A DNA stretch of 64,000 nt from Sediminispirochaeta bajacaliforniensis DSM 16054 (GTDB taxonomy: Bacteria > Spirochaetota > Spirochaetia > DSM-16054 > Sediminispirochaetaceae). Of this stretch, positions 16,476 through 36,387 are shown in pieces (within the stretch, counting starts at the first letter, position 1; each line of letters begins with the position of its first letter). The position numbers and the translations under genes were made by a program. Where the stretch lies: NCBI RefSeq assembly GCF_000378205.1, contig NZ_KB899406.1, positions 310,001 through 374,000 on the forward strand, in the 5' to 3' direction. The notes under the pieces are model-generated. The model saw nothing but the letters and a program-made list of their open reading frames with translations. It had not been told where the DNA came from and ran no database searches.

Positions 16476-16751
16476 ATGTATTATGCCGCGTATGAGAAGA
16501 AAACATCGAAGACGAAAAAGTGGAAAATTTTCAGCACTAAAAGCGATTTATTATCCCATTTTGAAAAGGTTGAACCTCGTGCAGTTCCCGAATCCAAGGA
16601 TGTGGTTGAACTTGATCAGAATCTTTCTTCATGGAGCATTGCAAAGCTTACGCCTGCTACCAGAAAAAAATTAGAAGACCATTTTGAAAAACCTGCGGCG
16701 GAGCTGAACGGCAAGGGTGACTTCCTTCCTGATTTGGTAAAAAAGTTATGA
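16476..16751 (+). CDS. Small lysine-rich protein of unknown function
   Basis: I do not recognise this 91-residue protein. The ATG at 16476 is chosen because AGGAG lies 7 bases upstream; an in-frame ATG seven codons earlier lacks a site. It is highly charged, with an N-terminal basic part (KKTSKTKKWKIFSTK) and predicted helical segments containing LTPATRKKLEDHFEK. There is no signal peptide or membrane segment, so it should be cytoplasmic. It stands alone between the symporter and a transposase relic. Confidence 0.55.
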   Translation: MYYAAYEKKTSKTKKWKIFSTKSDLLSHFEKVEPRAVPESKDVVELDQNLSSWSIAKLTPATRKKLEDHFEKPAAELNGKGDFLPDLVKKL

Positions 16752-16889
16752 TAGGATCTAAAGTCTGACCTGAACAGTGCTGTCGTAACACTTTAGAAAG
16801 GCAAAACTTGGTTCACTGCGTAATTATGGCACCGAAAGAGCCGTATCGGGTGAAGTTTTCAAATATACTTTTTAAACTACGACTTCTAA

Positions 16890-17560
16890 AGATGGTAAAA
16901 TGTAGTGTTGGAGAATCTGCAAAGCCGACCACTGCCTCGTCAATCTCGAAATCCTGATTGGTCACAGCATAGTAGAGCAGAAGTGTCTCCCTGCCGTACT
17001 ACCATTGCATCCTGGTATGCAGGTGCCTCAGCAGGGCTCACCACCATTGGAGGAAATAGTTCAGAGATCGGTACACGTTTTCCGCCGAATAGCGAGAGTC
17101 CCCAACGAAAATATCCCGCTTCTCCCTGGCTCTCTTCTTTGGGCAGGGGAAGACCCCCCGGTTAAGAACCAGCATTTTAAAGATGGAGTTGAGGGTTGCC
17201 CAAAGTTTTTGTACCGCCTGCGGTTGTTCAAGAAACAATCAATCTCCAGCTGGTGGTAAAGTACTGAAAGAGCTCCATAACCAATATTCTTACGGAGTTT
17301 TTATTCTGAGGAAAGTAAAATCTTTACACGCCATGGTGCTGTGCCCCGGCACTATTACCTGAATTGTATCCTTGAGGCGTTTTCTCTCGGCTGTCATTTG
17401 TTTGGCTACTGCCTTGAAATGTGCAATTGGATCGACAAACTGTTTCTCGAGCTCATTGAGATAACTTATGTCTTTGATCATCCATTGCCCTGTGGCCTCA
17501 ATAATTTAACGTTTGGTTCTGCTGGTCTTTTTCCCGTACAGTATTCCTAAAAAAATATCA
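16890..17560 (-). mobile_element. Decayed IS1634-type transposase
   Basis: Read on the minus strand and allowing several frameshifts, this stretch spells the N-terminal half of an IS1634-family (IS4-like DDE) transposase. The pieces in order are: ISYLNELEKQFVDPIAHFKA (about 17470-17410), NIGYGALSVLYHQLEIDCFL (about 17290-17230), LNSIFKMLVLNR...PKKRAREKRDIF...ENVYRSLNYF (about 17200-17050) and LYYAVTNQDFEIDEAVVGFA (about 16978-16920). In active members the last motif reads YYDVTN, whose Asp is the first catalytic residue; here it is Ala. The C-terminal half and clear terminal repeats are missing. It is an inactive remnant marking the left edge of the catabolic island. Confidence 0.65.
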
Positions 17561-17644
17561 TCACGTGTTTATAACATAGGGATTTATTTCTGTTATTAGA
17601 ATAATTCAACTATAAAAGTGTGGTAGAAATTAAAAATATTAGAC

Positions 17645-17690
17645 TTGACATATAGAATATCGGTGTTAGTATATGATATATAAAAATAAA
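17645..17690 (+). promoter_or_regulatory. Promoter and AT-rich operator before the dctP relic
   Basis: TTGACA (17645-17650) and a TAGTAT -10 (17667-17672, spacer 16) are overlapped by the palindrome TATATGATATA centred at 17675. The region closely matches the one before the intact dctP copy (25469-25507), including the GGTGTTA motif and the AAAGGAGCAAGA ribosome site. It probably still drives dctQ, dctM and the dehydrogenase gene. Confidence 0.7.
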
Positions 17691-17701
17691 AGGAGCAAGA
17701 T

Positions 17702-17934
17702 ATGCGTAAGCTTATTATGGTGTTTGTGGCGACTGCGCTGGGGTTTGCCAACGGCAAGCGGAGGTAACGATGAAAATCCAGCACAACCTGCCCACAACGC
17801 AGGTGATACTCGGGCTATTGAAGGAGCCATGGAAGGCAAAGATGGGTCCGGTGTACGCGTCGGTGGAGAAGCTGATAAGCAGCCAGGCCTGGGCCAAGCT
17901 GCATGAAGGAGCCGATGCGATCAGGGAGAAGTGA
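17702..17934 (+). pseudogene. Internally deleted dctP (TRAP solute-binding protein) relic
   Basis: The start, signal-peptide codons, a short block around QHNLPTTQ, and the last 36 or so codons (from MGPVYASVEKL to the TGA) match the intact dctP at 25526-26572 almost base for base. About 80% of the gene between them is gone. Two of the junctions fall at short repeats present in the intact copy: ACGCAGG (25670 and 26360) and TGAAGGAG (26382 and 26457). The remainder is out of frame, so no binding protein is made. It occupies the usual binding-protein place before dctQ and dctM. Upstream signals are intact. Confidence 0.9.
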
Positions 17935-17994
17935 GCAGCATGGTGATGGGCCTGCGGCCCCTCCCATGGATATCATTGCAAAATAGGAATCTAT

Positions 17995-18540
17995 ATGAAG
18001 AAACTATCAAGCCTTTTAGGAAACCTGGATTATTTCATTCAGCCAATTCTCATGATCATATTGTTGGCCGCGGCTTTGTTGCAGGTCTTGTACAGGTTTG
18101 TTCCTTTCGTCCATACCCCATGGACCCTGGAATTGATAACTTATCTGTTCAGTGCTTCCGTATGGCTGGGGATAAGTATTGCAGTCAAGGAGAACAGTCA
18201 TGTCGGTATCCTGGCGGTCTACAGCAGGTTCCCGAGGAAGATCAGGATTTTCTTCAAGATATGCAACTATGGCATCTTTGCTGCGATGATGCTTGTCTTT
18301 GCCTTCCTTGGATTGCAGGCACTTGTCGGATACTGGCGAACTGAAAACATTTCTCCCGCCCTGCATGCCCCGTATTGGTTGCTCCGCAGTCCGATAGCCA
18401 TAGGTGGAATTTACTCGGTCTATAGGATTGTTCAGCAGATAGCGGCAATTATCAGGCATACGGATCCGGAATTCTTCGATACCCAGAGCAAGCCCGTGGA
18501 TCCTTCTGTGTATTGTGATCAGGTTGGAGGGATAGAGTGA
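17995..18540 (+). CDS. dctQ: TRAP transporter small permease (DctQ)
   Basis: The 181-residue protein has four hydrophobic segments and the family landmarks of DctQ: a second helix reading LITYLFSASVWLGISIAVKENSHVG and a third helix region around IFAAMMLVFAFLGLQAL. It forms the small membrane subunit of a tripartite ATP-independent periplasmic transporter, which imports acids or sugar acids using a sodium gradient. Its stop overlaps the start of dctM (TGATG). The binding-protein gene that should precede it is the deleted relic, so function depends on the intact dctP at 25.5 kb. Confidence 0.9.
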   Translation: MKKLSSLLGNLDYFIQPILMIILLAAALLQVLYRFVPFVHTPWTLELITYLFSASVWLGISIAVKENSHVGILAVYSRFPRKIRIFFKICNYGIFAAMMLVFAFLGLQALVGYWRTENISPALHAPYWLLRSPIAIGGIYSVYRIVQQIAAIIRHTDPEFFDTQSKPVDPSVYCDQVGGIE

Positions 18541-19826
18541 TGCCAATAATGAGCATCTCGGTTTGCTTGGGAGCTTTGATCCTGATCGTGATCGGAGCTC
18601 CGGTCTTGGTAGCCATCGGTTTCTCCAGCATCATGGTACTCTGTTGCTTCCATCCTGTGCCGTTCATTTCCATTCCCCAGTTGATGTTTTCCGGTATGGA
18701 ATCCTATACATTGGTCGCGATTCCCCTGTTTGTCCTGGCAGGTGTCCTGATGGAATCCTGCGGCGTTGCAAGAAATATCATTGCGTTCTGCAAGGCTCTC
18801 GTCGGATGGGCCCGCGGTGGTTTGGGTGCGGTCAATGTCGTATCAAGCTTCATTTTCGGAGGTATTTCAGGTTCTTCAGTCGCCGATACTGTATCGATAG
18901 GGGCCATTATGATTCCTGAGATGATCGATGATGGCTATGACAGGAACTACTCCGCAGGTATCACCGTCATTTCCTCGACGCTGGCTGTCGTCGTCCCCCC
19001 TAGCATCCTTATGATAGTCCTTGGAGGCGTCGCTGAGGTTTCTGTGTCAAGGTTGTTGATCGGCGGTCTTGTTCCTGGCGCCTTGATGGCTGTCACCATG
19101 ATGATTCAGAACTACTACATTGCCAGGAAACACCATTATGGGAGTGTAGCCAAGTTTTCCCTTAGGTCCCTTTGGTCGACGTTTAGGATTGGTTTTTTTG
19201 CCTTGGGTGCACCTCTGATCATCATCCTCGGAATCATGACCGGGATCGTCACGCCAACGGAATCAGGAGCCTTAGCGGTATTCTATACCTTGGTGGTCTC
19301 CAAGTTCTGTTATCATAGCTTGTCATGGGATGTACTGAGGAGGGCGTTCGTCGAAGGTGCTAAGATGACGGCAGCGGTCGTGGCGATCATTGCTTCTTCA
19401 TCGATCTTTACGTTCATCATGACCTTCGAAGGATTGCCGCAGATAGTAGCAGGGGCCTTGATGAAGCTTTCTACGAATCCGATTGTGATTCTTCTGCTCA
19501 TAGATGTGTTCCTGCTTTTCGTGGGCATGCTGATCGATGCCAGTGTTGCGATAATCATACTGAGCCCGATCTTGTATCCGGTCATCCTCAATCTTGGCAT
19601 CGATCCGGTGTATTTCGGGGTATTGTTCGTCCTCAACCTTGCAATTGGGCTGGTCACGCCACCCTTCGGTGTGTGTCTGTTCAGCGTCTGCAATGTCGGT
19701 GACATCAGCATGGAAGACTTGCTCAAGGGATCCCTGTCTCTCTACGGTTCCCTGTTCGGGACCTTGTTGCTGGTGACCTTGTTTCCGCAGATAGTCCTAT
19801 GGCTGCCCCAGGTCTTGTTTGGCTGA
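18540..19826 (+). CDS. dctM: TRAP transporter large permease (DctM)
   Basis: The start at ATG 18540 overlaps the dctQ stop; a GTG one codon earlier is also open. The 428-residue protein has about 12 membrane helices and the DctM signatures GGISGSSVADTVSIGAIMIP (about 100-120) and PPSILMIVLG (about 155), plus ILSPILYPV and VTPPFGVCLF in the C-terminal half. It is the channel subunit that accepts substrate from the periplasmic binding protein and couples import to sodium. It is followed 31 bases later by a dehydrogenase gene, probably in the same transcript. Confidence 0.92.
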   Translation: MPIMSISVCLGALILIVIGAPVLVAIGFSSIMVLCCFHPVPFISIPQLMFSGMESYTLVAIPLFVLAGVLMESCGVARNIIAFCKALVGWARGGLGAVNVVSSFIFGGISGSSVADTVSIGAIMIPEMIDDGYDRNYSAGITVISSTLAVVVPPSILMIVLGGVAEVSVSRLLIGGLVPGALMAVTMMIQNYYIARKHHYGSVAKFSLRSLWSTFRIGFFALGAPLIIILGIMTGIVTPTESGALAVFYTLVVSKFCYHSLSWDVLRRAFVEGAKMTAAVVAIIASSSIFTFIMTFEGLPQIVAGALMKLSTNPIVILLLIDVFLLFVGMLIDASVAIIILSPILYPVILNLGIDPVYFGVLFVLNLAIGLVTPPFGVCLFSVCNVGDISMEDLLKGSLSLYGSLFGTLLLVTLFPQIVLWLPQVLFG

Positions 19827-23793: not shown

Positions 23794-24507
23794 TCAATGG
23801 GTGTGCATCGACTGGGAGATCTTTGAATCTTCCTGCTTTTCATCCCAGAAGATATCAAGTCCCTGCAGGGTGATGTTCTTGCTGGTTGCCATGTGCTTCT
23901 CTATTGCATGGCTTGTCTTTTTTGAATCGTGGAGCCGCAGGGCGGCGATTAGGGCCATATGTTCGTTGAAGGTCTTATCGATGATGTCCTGGGAATAGTT
24001 TGTGACGAATATCCAGCGTCTGATGAGCCAGTCCTGTTCCTGCAGGGGGCGGAGGATGTCCCGCAACCTTGGATTGTCTGCGCATCGTCGCACGGTGTTG
24101 TGGATGAGCATGTCGGCTTCGATGAATTCGTCGATGGATTGGTTCCTTGTGTTCTTGCATTTGTCGACATACTGCTTTTCCATCTCATCGATTTCTTCAT
24201 CGGTCATGGCAACGGCAGCCAACTGGAATGCCAGGTTCTCCAAAGTGCTTCTGATGAGACTTATATCCAGGACATCCTTCTTTGTAGGGTTGAAGACCGA
24301 ATAGCTTTTCCCGTCATAGGTTACTAAGCCTTCGAACACGAGATTACGCAAGCCTTCCCTGACCGGAGTCATGCTTACATTGATTTCCTTTGCCAGGGGC
24401 TCGACGATTAGCCTGTCTCCGGGCCGGAATTCCAAAGATACTATTTTTGATTTGATTATCTGGGCCACCTGCTCGTTCAAGTTTACCTTTGTGATTCCCA
24501 TTATCAT
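23794..24507 (-). CDS. GntR-family (FCD) regulator, paralog 1
   Basis: The ATG at 24507 is preceded by GAGGAG; longer TTG starts are unlikely. The 237-residue protein has a winged helix-turn-helix (KEINVSMTPVREGLRNLVFE) and an FCD domain. It is clearly a paralog of the regulator at 27622: both read LEF(R/K)PG(D/T)RLIVE, KEINVSMTP, YDGKSYSVFNP and WLIR(R/S)WIF at matching places. Its own promoter carries the AT-rich palindrome found before other genes of the island, which suggests autoregulation. It converges with the larA gene. The effector is probably an intermediate of the pathway. Confidence 0.88.
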   Translation of the reverse strand: MIMGITKVNLNEQVAQIIKSKIVSLEFRPGDRLIVEPLAKEINVSMTPVREGLRNLVFEGLVTYDGKSYSVFNPTKKDVLDISLIRSTLENLAFQLAAVAMTDEEIDEMEKQYVDKCKNTRNQSIDEFIEADMLIHNTVRRCADNPRLRDILRPLQEQDWLIRRWIFVTNYSQDIIDKTFNEHMALIAALRLHDSKKTSHAIEKHMATSKNITLQGLDIFWDEKQEDSKISQSMHTH

Positions 24508-24550
24508 GTATGCACTCCTCTGATTTACTATGAAAAACAACAAATCATAT

Positions 24551-24578
24551 TTTATATATTATATACTCTAACTGACAA
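24551..24578 (-). promoter_or_regulatory. Promoter and AT-rich operator of GntR paralog 1
   Basis: On the minus strand, TTGTCA (24578-24573) and TATAAA (24556-24551) are 16 bases apart. The 13-base palindrome TATATATTATATA (24553-24565) overlaps the -10. It matches the island-wide operator pattern. Confidence 0.6.
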
Positions 24579-24589
24579 GACAACATTAA

Positions 24590-25460
24590 TCAATATTTTA
24601 TTTCAGCAGTTCTCAAAGTAGCAAAAATACCTGCCTCGCCCTCGGCGTTAGCTTGGCATTTTTCAAACCTAAGCAGCATTGAAGAAAAATATTGTTGACT
24701 CTTTTGAATGCAAAAGATCAGTAATGGCATGAGGGAAACTGTTATCATCAGTCAGCGCCTGAAGATCCTGAAAGAAGGTCTTCCTGTTGGGAATCGTTTC
24801 GCACAGCAGCAGATAGGGCCGGCTGAACAGTTCAGCCACGGTATGGAAAAGAAAAACAGGTTTAATGTCATAAGAAAACTAGAGAGGTGCTTTTCTCAGC
24901 CCCATATGCACTCATAGCGTTCATGCAATTGCTGCGACGTGAACTCCTTACGATATTCATATAAGTACTTATGAAGAAATGTCTTACACATATAAATAAA
25001 ATTGCAATCGGCTTTACGAAATGATTTTCAACCACCGTTTTACTGCCCTGTTTTCACAGTCCTGCTTGGTGCTCTCGTCATCGACGGTTATAAACTCCGG
25101 TGGAATCTTGTGTACGCCAAATATACTTCATACATCGTGTTCTTTCCGGTCTGTACATCCGAAAAAGTTTCAATTGAGCCTTCAAGAAACTAAAACAATA
25201 CAGCAAAGCTGTTGCCGTCTCTTCCACAAGGAAAAGCATAGTGTAGAGATATTGACGATTCATGCCGACCCCATATTTGTCTCATTGAGAATTGCGGATT
25301 TTGTTCCTGATTTCCCTTCTTGATTACCATGGCAAATCCATTTTGGCCGCTCATAAACCAGTAAAGATGTGGTAACGAGCATGTTTTCGGTATGATTCAG
25401 CTGATTGACTTCTGCAACAAAACATGCAGGGTATCGGCGAAATCTCAAACGTGTATTCAA
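24590..25460 (-). mobile_element. Gene-free stretch, probable decayed transposase
   Basis: No intact gene is seen in about 880 bases. Minus-strand translations give short broken pieces such as ITVDDESTKQDCENRAVKRWLK (about 25100-25040, read across a frame change), FVAEVNQLNHTENML (about 25430) and EFTSQQLHERYECIWG (about 24940). The KQDCE...KR...LK pattern recalls a transposase family common in Treponema and Bacteroides, but the match is from memory and weak. Stops and frame changes are frequent. It lies just before the intact dctP promoter, as the IS1634-type relic lies before the deleted dctP. Confidence 0.35.
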
Positions 25461-25468
25461 AATCATGC

Positions 25469-25507
25469 TTGACATATGAAATACCGGTGTTAATATATCA
25501 TATATTA
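25469..25507 (+). promoter_or_regulatory. dctP promoter with 17-base palindromic operator
   Basis: TTGACA (25469-25474) and TAATAT (25491-25496) are spaced by 16 bases. TAATATATCATATATTA (25491-25507) is a perfect palindrome covering the -10 and start region, the best example of the island operator. AAAGGAG follows before the ATG. Confidence 0.75.
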
Positions 25508-25525
25508 AAATGAAAGGAGCAAGAC

Positions 25526-26572
25526 ATGAGGAAGCTTATTATGGTGTTTGCGATGGCTGTGATGGCGGCGACGCTGGGGTTCGCCAACGGGCAGGCGGAG
25601 CAAGGCCTGGGGGGCGGGGATCCTCACCAGGCGGCGGTGACGATGAAGATCGAGCACAACCTGCCCACCACGCAGGCGTGGCAGGACGGGTTCACCTATA
25701 TAAAGGACGAGATGGGGATGCTGTACCCCAACCTGGACTGCACAATCTACCCCAACGGACAGCTGGCGAAGGGGGATTGGAAGATCATCTTCGAGCAGGC
25801 GCAAAGCAACGTGGTGCAAATAACCTGCGAGAGTCAGGTGACGCTGGCAACGCTGGTGCCGCAGCTGTTTGCGTTGTCCACGCCGTTCTTGTTTGATGAC
25901 ATGGACCACTTGCTGCGGTTCATGGACACCAATCCCGACTACGTGCAGGGGTGGTTCGACCAGTTGGAGGAGAAGAACCTGAAGGTACTCACCTACTGGC
26001 CTCGGGGGCCGCGGCAGCTGGTGAACTCCAGGCGCCCGGTGGTGGTGCCGGAGGACATCCGCGGGCTGAAGTTCCGGGTTCCGGCGATGGACCTGTTCAT
26101 CACGACGTTCAACGCGATGGGGGCTAAGCCGGTGCCGATGCCATCCGGGGAGATTTACACGGGTATCCAGCTGGGGACGGTGTGCGGGGAGGACAACTCG
26201 CTGCAGACGGTGTGCAACACGAAGACCTATGAGCAGTGTAGGTACATGAACGTGTGGAACTACATGGCCGACGGGGTGCTGGTGGTGGTGAACAAGAACT
26301 GGTACGACGGCCTGCCGGAGGGCTTCAGAGCTGATCTGGACCGGGTGGCGAAGGAGTCTACGCAGGTGATGCTCGGGCTGGTGAAGGAGCGAGAGGTGTC
26401 GGCCCGGCGGACAATGGAGACTTACGGGATCCAGTTCACAGACTTCACTGCGGAGATGAAGGAGCCGTGGAAGGCGAAGATGGGTCCGGTGTACGCGTCG
26501 GTGGAGAAGCTGATAGGCAGCCAGGCCTGGGCCAAGCTGCAGGCAGGAGCCGATGCGACCAGGGAGAAGTGA
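25526..26572 (+). CDS. dctP: TRAP transporter solute-binding protein (DctP)
   Basis: The 348-residue protein has a signal peptide ending near LGFANGQAEQ and the DctP fold: HNLPTTQAWQDGFTYIKDEM near 52, then the helix-strand segment GLKFRVPAMDLFITTFNAMG with the arginine that pairs with the substrate carboxylate (Arg in KFRVP), and PMPSGEIYTGIQLGTVCGEDN. It captures the substrate in the periplasm for DctQM. It is separated by about 6 kb from its likely membrane partners, whose adjacent dctP is destroyed. Codons end strongly in G or C (GCG, CTG, GTG), unlike flanking genes. A terminator follows. Confidence 0.9.
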   Translation: MRKLIMVFAMAVMAATLGFANGQAEQGLGGGDPHQAAVTMKIEHNLPTTQAWQDGFTYIKDEMGMLYPNLDCTIYPNGQLAKGDWKIIFEQAQSNVVQITCESQVTLATLVPQLFALSTPFLFDDMDHLLRFMDTNPDYVQGWFDQLEEKNLKVLTYWPRGPRQLVNSRRPVVVPEDIRGLKFRVPAMDLFITTFNAMGAKPVPMPSGEIYTGIQLGTVCGEDNSLQTVCNTKTYEQCRYMNVWNYMADGVLVVVNKNWYDGLPEGFRADLDRVAKESTQVMLGLVKEREVSARRTMETYGIQFTDFTAEMKEPWKAKMGPVYASVEKLIGSQAWAKLQAGADATREK

Positions 26573-26631
26573 ATCAGCATGGTGACGGGCCTGGGGGCTC
26601 TCCCCCGTACATCATCAGAAAAATTCATGCT

Positions 26632-26660
26632 GCCGCCTGTAATCCCGGGCGGCTTTTCTT
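26632..26660 (+). terminator. Rho-independent terminator after dctP
   Basis: GCCGCC (26632-26637) pairs with GGCGGC (26648-26653) and is followed by TTTTCTTT. It makes dctP a single-gene transcript. Confidence 0.75.
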
Positions 26661-36347: not shown

Positions 36348-36387
36348 ATTATATATAATATTTTAACACTGGTATACTAAATGTCAA
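36348..36387 (-). promoter_or_regulatory. Promoter and AT-rich operator before the RbsB-type gene
   Basis: On the minus strand, TTGACA (36387-36382) and TAAAAT (36365-36360) are 16 bases apart. They are followed by the perfect 12-base palindrome ATTATATATAAT (36348-36359). The GTGTTA just before the -10 is shared with the two dctP promoters. Confidence 0.7.

Follow-up and report, generated by a model that had tools for sequence, protein, structure and literature searches.

A dctP relic left by short-repeat deletions in a TRAP transporter operon, and its probable replacement by an intact copy elsewhere in the same island

Introduction

What becomes of a TRAP transporter operon whose own binding-protein gene has been destroyed? 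The question is raised by a stretch of 64,000 nucleotides (the window), in which the genes of a membrane pair stand directly behind the remains of a dctP gene, and an intact dctP lies farther downstream.

17702–17934, plus strand: dctP relic, with codons 1–21, a frameshift, internal deletions of 690 and 75 bp, and the native stop TGA at 17932–17934
17995–18540, plus strand: dctQ, small TRAP permease subunit, intact (Pfam DctQ, 2e-19; 59% to Treponema socranskii)
18537–19826, plus strand: dctM, large TRAP permease subunit, intact and full length (Pfam DctM, 3e-114; 71% to T. socranskii along the entire protein)
25526–26572, plus strand: intact dctP paralogue (Pfam DctP, 4e-60), the only other copy of its type in the genome

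All three components of a TRAP transporter of the DctP type (PQM) are accordingly encoded, namely DctQ, DctM and a DctP-family protein, with the dctP next to dctQM being the relic. The binding protein of TRAP systems is a soluble periplasmic component, so its transcription from a separate unit would be no obstacle. A preliminary description of the locus had suggested that DctQM relies on the distal dctP, and the analysis given here makes it likely that dctP was duplicated, that the copy at the ancestral site decayed, and that the distal gene supplies DctQM.

Results and discussion

Structure of the relic and its breakpoints

Global alignment and gap-free blocks confirmed that the relic is real: 17641–17990 is homologous to 25465–26624, with the middle missing. 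Both ends of the gene were kept, the 5′ end with the start codon and the signal-peptide region as well as the last 38 codons with the stop, and alignment to the intact copy and the promoter scan likewise bore out the retention of the promoter and the ribosome-binding site (AAGGAGCAAGAT). The alignment with intact dctP also recovered the codons around HNLPTTQ and a 15-bp island between the two deletions. To call the flanks near-identical, as had been done, was an overstatement, since the 61 bp of the 5′ flank are 84% identical and about 50 bp of the 3′ flank about 80%, after which the sequences are unrelated; the homology is limited to about 17641/25465 upstream and about 50 bp past the stop downstream. 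Within the gene, the last 116 bp are 95% identical to intact dctP and the other coding blocks 82–89%, and the higher identity at the end may stem from later gene conversion. The reading frame has been destroyed and constraint lost: the frameshift after codon 21 leads into a TAA at 17765–17767, invariant residues have changed (G>S, T>I) and the substitutions are biased towards AT.

Both internal deletions end at short direct repeats of the parent gene, of which a single copy was left in each case, as in a pseudogene formed by short-repeat deletion. Intact dctP contains two copies of the 7-bp repeat ACGCAGG and no more, at 25670 and 26360 with a spacing of 690 bp, and the relic has one, at its junction (17797). 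The second repeat, TGAAGGAGC, was also found exactly twice as proposed, at 26382 and 26457 with a spacing of 75 bp; in the relic the two are fused into a single copy at 17819, though the repeat measures 9 bp and not 8. For random deletions of intact dctP, the probability of a junction homology of at least 7 bp was 0.0012 and of at least 8 bp 0.0004; these statistics, at P about 1e-3 or less for each junction, back the suggested replication slippage. A third repeat deletion is likely, with 36 bp removed between the copies of CAGGCGG at 25592 and 25628, and this loss, together with that of one base (one G), broke the frame of the relic. Since the orthologues are 7 residues shorter than intact DctP in the linker that holds the 36-bp difference, some of it may reflect an expansion of the intact gene. 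A literature search for short-repeat deletion in bacterial pseudogenes yielded little.

The native frame is regained shortly after the premature stop:

17770–17934, plus strand: 54 codons open in the frame of native dctP, beginning 2 bases past the premature TAA and behind GGAGG (GGAGGTAACGATG)

A restart at 17770 would be possible, and a function of the 54-codon frame is doubtful. Were the relic to act as a leader for dctQM, a short peptide would end at the TAA and translation would restart at GGAGG-TAACG-ATG and run through this frame, which we regard as very improbable. Just as little weight can be given to the related idea that ribosomes kept on the mRNA spare dctQM polarity silencing and that in-frame deletions were selected for this. 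The repeat deletions (36, 690 and 75 bp) are indeed all multiples of three, and GGAGG and the ATG restore the native frame only two bases past the stop. However, 83% of the repeats of at least 7 bp in dctP are already spaced in frame, hence in-frame deletions are expected and selection for them was rejected; the restart site, moreover, needs only AT-ward substitutions.

Ancestral gene order and direction of decay

The ancestral order was assessed in six orthologous loci, from T. socranskii and five Sphaerochaeta-type or uncultured spirochaetes (DctP 59–68%, DctM 63–71%). All six have an intact dctP followed directly by dctQ and dctM, surrounded by genes for ADH, SDR, transketolase halves, Fe-ADH and a group-22 nickel-pincer isomerase in various combinations, and T. 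socranskii is the closest relative for DctP, DctQ and DctM alike (68, 59 and 71%). Because every one of these relatives has a contiguous dctPQM with the same catabolic genes, position 17702 is where dctP stood ancestrally, and the gene at 25526 is the displaced one. A genome of the same genus (G001) lacks 16745–36958 and has about 1.7 kb there instead, so this stretch is a catabolic island of ~20 kb in the lineage of the window's genome. As only one genome of the lineage carries the island, no intermediate state was visible. Many of the island genes have a GC3 slightly above the genome average. Elsewhere in the window, the segment 8382–14744 (a GntR regulator, ABC permeases and a serine dehydratase alpha-like protein) is precisely missing from that same-genus genome.

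The direction of decay could be read from the substitutions. In 18 of the 20 coding differences between strong and weak bases, the relic has A or T (two-sided binomial p about 4e-4, counted after overlap between alignment blocks had been removed by hand), as expected for decay after duplication. When residues were polarised by the orthologues, the derived state lay in the relic in four cases (M>I, G>S, A>E, T>I) and in the intact copy in one (Q>E). A divergence of the two copies before the deletions, which had been put forward as an objection, was not seen, the coding blocks differing by only about 9% with the 18:2 AT bias in the relic. Intact DctP showed no excess divergence, at 60.0–61.4% to the Sphaerochaeta-type proteins compared with 59.7–60.6% for T. 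socranskii DctP.

The same end state, including use of DctP in trans, could also have been reached by reciprocal loss, if duplication took in all of dctPQM (or dctPQM-SDR), after which dctP disappeared from copy 1 and dctQM from copy 2, so that the remaining dctP of copy 2 came to stand in front of the SDR gene. The SDR gene (26790) does follow intact dctP here, and in five of the six relatives it comes after dctPQM, either at once or with ADH in between, and the homology 3′ of dctP extends about 50 bp towards dctQ. Yet no trace of dctQ or dctM was found between 26625 and 26790, an interval that instead holds a terminator, and the SDR gene has operator-like sites of its own upstream. We consider reciprocal loss unlikely and favour the duplication of dctP with subsequent decay of the ancestral-site copy.

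Upstream of the relic, the debris of another gene was recognised:

16746–17640, minus strand: remains of an IS1634-family transposase gene, interrupted by 10 stops and immediately upstream of the dctP relic

Its minus-frame translation matches transposase frames of 578–697 aa in other genomes of the class, one of which has five copies (tblastx up to 1e-42; NCBIfam transpos_IS1634 on an intact homologue), and its DNA gave no match in plasmids. The segment before intact dctP, 24544–25460, is AT-rich and geneless, its translated frames are full of stops and no credible match to it was found; neither segment had a Pfam match. The presence of the same insertion element beside both dctP copies could thus be discarded, one segment being the IS1634 relic and the other being without a credible match.

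Codon use of dctP

Intact dctP has a GC3 of 0.871 and a G3 of 0.593. The 396 open frames sampled from the genome gave a GC3 of 0.535 (sd 0.065) and a G3 of 0.253 (sd 0.042), with next highest values of 0.692 for GC3 and 0.389 for G3. The gene lies about 5 sd (GC3) and 8 sd (G3) out, using GTG at 93%, GTC at 0%, and GAG and AAG at 100% each. This extreme bias is absent from the orthologues, and the gap in GC3 between dctP and dctM is at most about 0.07 in the six loci. The relic shares the bias, with G or C in 42 of 55 third positions, so that the bias predates the duplication.

Several sources of the bias were considered. GC-biased gene conversion between the two dctP copies was dismissed as the origin of a GC3 of 0.87, the fourfold-site excess being in G only with C3 unchanged, and high expression is unsupported, as EF-Tu of this genome has a GC3 of 0.50. 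An isolated foreign origin of dctP was rejected as well, since DctP and DctM agree in their relatives and in their distances. A donor that favours G-ending codons would be possible; the search for one found none, with plasmid matches below 60%. A history of duplication and decay leaves the extreme codon use of dctP unaccounted for.

Promoters, operator and spacer

Each dctP copy is preceded by a promoter and a palindrome, and a terminator and a regulator gene lie nearby:

17645–17683, plus strand: relic promoter TTGACA-16-TAGTAT with a degenerate palindromic operator (17667–17683), from alignment to 25469–25507, promoter scan and motif search
25469–25507, plus strand: promoter of intact dctP, TTGACA-16-TAATAT, with a perfect operator TAATATATCATATATTA, from promoter scan and motif search
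26632–26660, plus strand: intrinsic terminator after intact dctP (top site of the terminator scan; fold)
23794–24543, minus strand: GntR/FCD-family regulator, adjoining the operator-like sites at 24545–24568

The promoter scan as a whole returned no more sites than chance. The promoter at the relic presumably drives dctQM, and the terminator at 26632–26660 is predicted to make intact dctP monocistronic. The palindrome TAATATATNATATATTA, with up to 3 mismatches allowed, has 8 sites in the 64-kb window against 0.2 expected, all inside the island (17667, 24545, 24552, 25491, 26729, 26736, 28462 and 36349). They precede the relic with dctQM, where one arm of the operator is weakened, the GntR gene, intact dctP with the perfect site, the SDR gene and the transketolase genes, with one site at 36349. 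The GntR/FCD protein is a candidate regulator of the island, with TAATATATNATATATTA as its probable operator, and the motif shared by the two units makes co-regulation of dctQM and the distal dctP likely.

In the relatives, the spacer between dctP and dctQ may itself be regulatory. In the four that were folded, its stability exceeded that of shuffled sequence (z −2.0 to −3.8), and U-rich sequence follows the P–Q hairpin on its 3′ side in Sphaerochaeta-type loci; the hairpin is possibly an attenuator that sets the P:QM ratio. The fold of the relic–dctQ spacer is unremarkable (z −1.1). If the relic persisted because its translation as a leader ties dctQM expression to the passage of ribosomes, with DctP made separately from its extreme G-ending codons, the P:QM ratio would be set by two operons under one operator and not by a P–Q hairpin, but such a role strikes us as very improbable.

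Partner genes in the genome and use in trans

Pfam searches of the genome recovered six proteins each for DctP and DctM. DctP and DctM genes lie side by side at four places (C13, C1:144k, C3 and C17), the DctM of C4 adjoins a TAXI protein (NMT1_3), and the DctP of C7, distant from the window, adjoins a HisKA_2 histidine kinase. The dctQM of the window is the only membrane pair without a neighbouring intact binding protein, and the dctP of the window the only one without a partner gene. A third binding protein for this dctQM, an alternative raised beforehand, is absent from all six orthologous loci, each of which has contiguous dctP-dctQ-dctM. There is a single intact cognate dctP, and it carries the same operator motif as dctQM. 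The use of the distal DctP by dctQM appears the best reading of the locus, and it is strengthened by the congruent nearest relatives of DctP, DctQ and DctM, by the equal rate of intact DctP and by the shared operator.

The destruction of the operon's own binding gene could also mean that the transporter is dead, with dctQM a remnant that will itself decay and intact DctP an orphan with another role, for example in sensing. DctP proteins with sensory partners may exist, one lying beside a histidine kinase in the same genome. Against this, neither dctQ nor dctM is truncated, the distance of DctM from the Sphaerochaeta-type group is little greater than that of T. socranskii DctM, the promoter and operator were kept and the catabolic genes are intact, and we judge a dead transporter to be quite improbable. 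At the locus L083:4345–6921, a DctP-family gene stands directly 5′ of a HisKA_2 histidine kinase gene with no TRAP membrane genes nearby, and its product is possibly a sensory binding protein.

Proposed history of the locus

According to the preferred reading, an ordinary dctP-dctQ-dctM operon was present in the acquired ~20-kb island, and its dctP would have been duplicated as a unit of about 1.16 kb together with promoter and operator. The copy at the ancestral place would then have become dispensable and decayed, slippage between short direct repeats removing 690, 75 and probably 36 bp, the loss of one base breaking the frame and AT-ward substitutions following. The relic promoter would have been retained because dctQM still needed it. 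DctQ and DctM would be made from this promoter and DctP from its own, 6 kb away and under the same operator; DctP would be secreted, bind its substrate and dock on DctQM in the periplasm, so that the subunits of the transporter probably come from two different operons. The relic, its breakpoints, the gene order of the ancestor, the presence of a single intact copy and the common operator motif have been shown; we infer that DctQM is functional and uses this DctP, that the GntR protein of the island is the repressor and that the events took place in this order.

The locus had been called a rare direct view of subunit separation, which goes too far, as this is a normal outcome of duplication and decay; it is a clean example of a repeat-deletion pseudogene within a split TRAP operon and not a new kind of system. 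Its value lies in a well-resolved operon split, with a known ancestral order, the decayed gene still in place, breakpoints at base level and the replacement under the same operator, and the supply of a TRAP binding protein by a separate transcription unit could be tested on it. In automatic annotation, dctQM and dctP would probably each be recorded as orphans, with no link between the two.

Comparison with known systems

The closest counterparts are the canonical dctPQM operons of the six spirochaete loci, including T. socranskii, which share the orthologous P, Q and M and the catabolic neighbours; those of the Sphaerochaeta type also resemble the present locus in an AT-rich palindrome before dctP. 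In these operons, dctP is intact and adjoins dctQM, usually with a strong P–Q hairpin, whereas here a relic without a comparable hairpin takes its place. The separation of a binding-protein gene from its membrane genes recalls the TTT systems of Bordetella, for which orphan TctC/Bug binding proteins are well described (PMC5812351). There, however, the genome contains numerous additional binding proteins at scattered sites, while here a single dctP has moved and the decayed gene that preceded it still occupies the old site. Bordetella pertussis also has DctP proteins whose membrane genes are mutated (PMC5812351), and the two cases are alike in that one component of a TRAP system has been inactivated. 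The damage is reversed, though: in B. pertussis the membrane part is defective and the binding protein survives, whereas here it is the operon's binding gene that is defective, and dctQM and a second dctP are intact.
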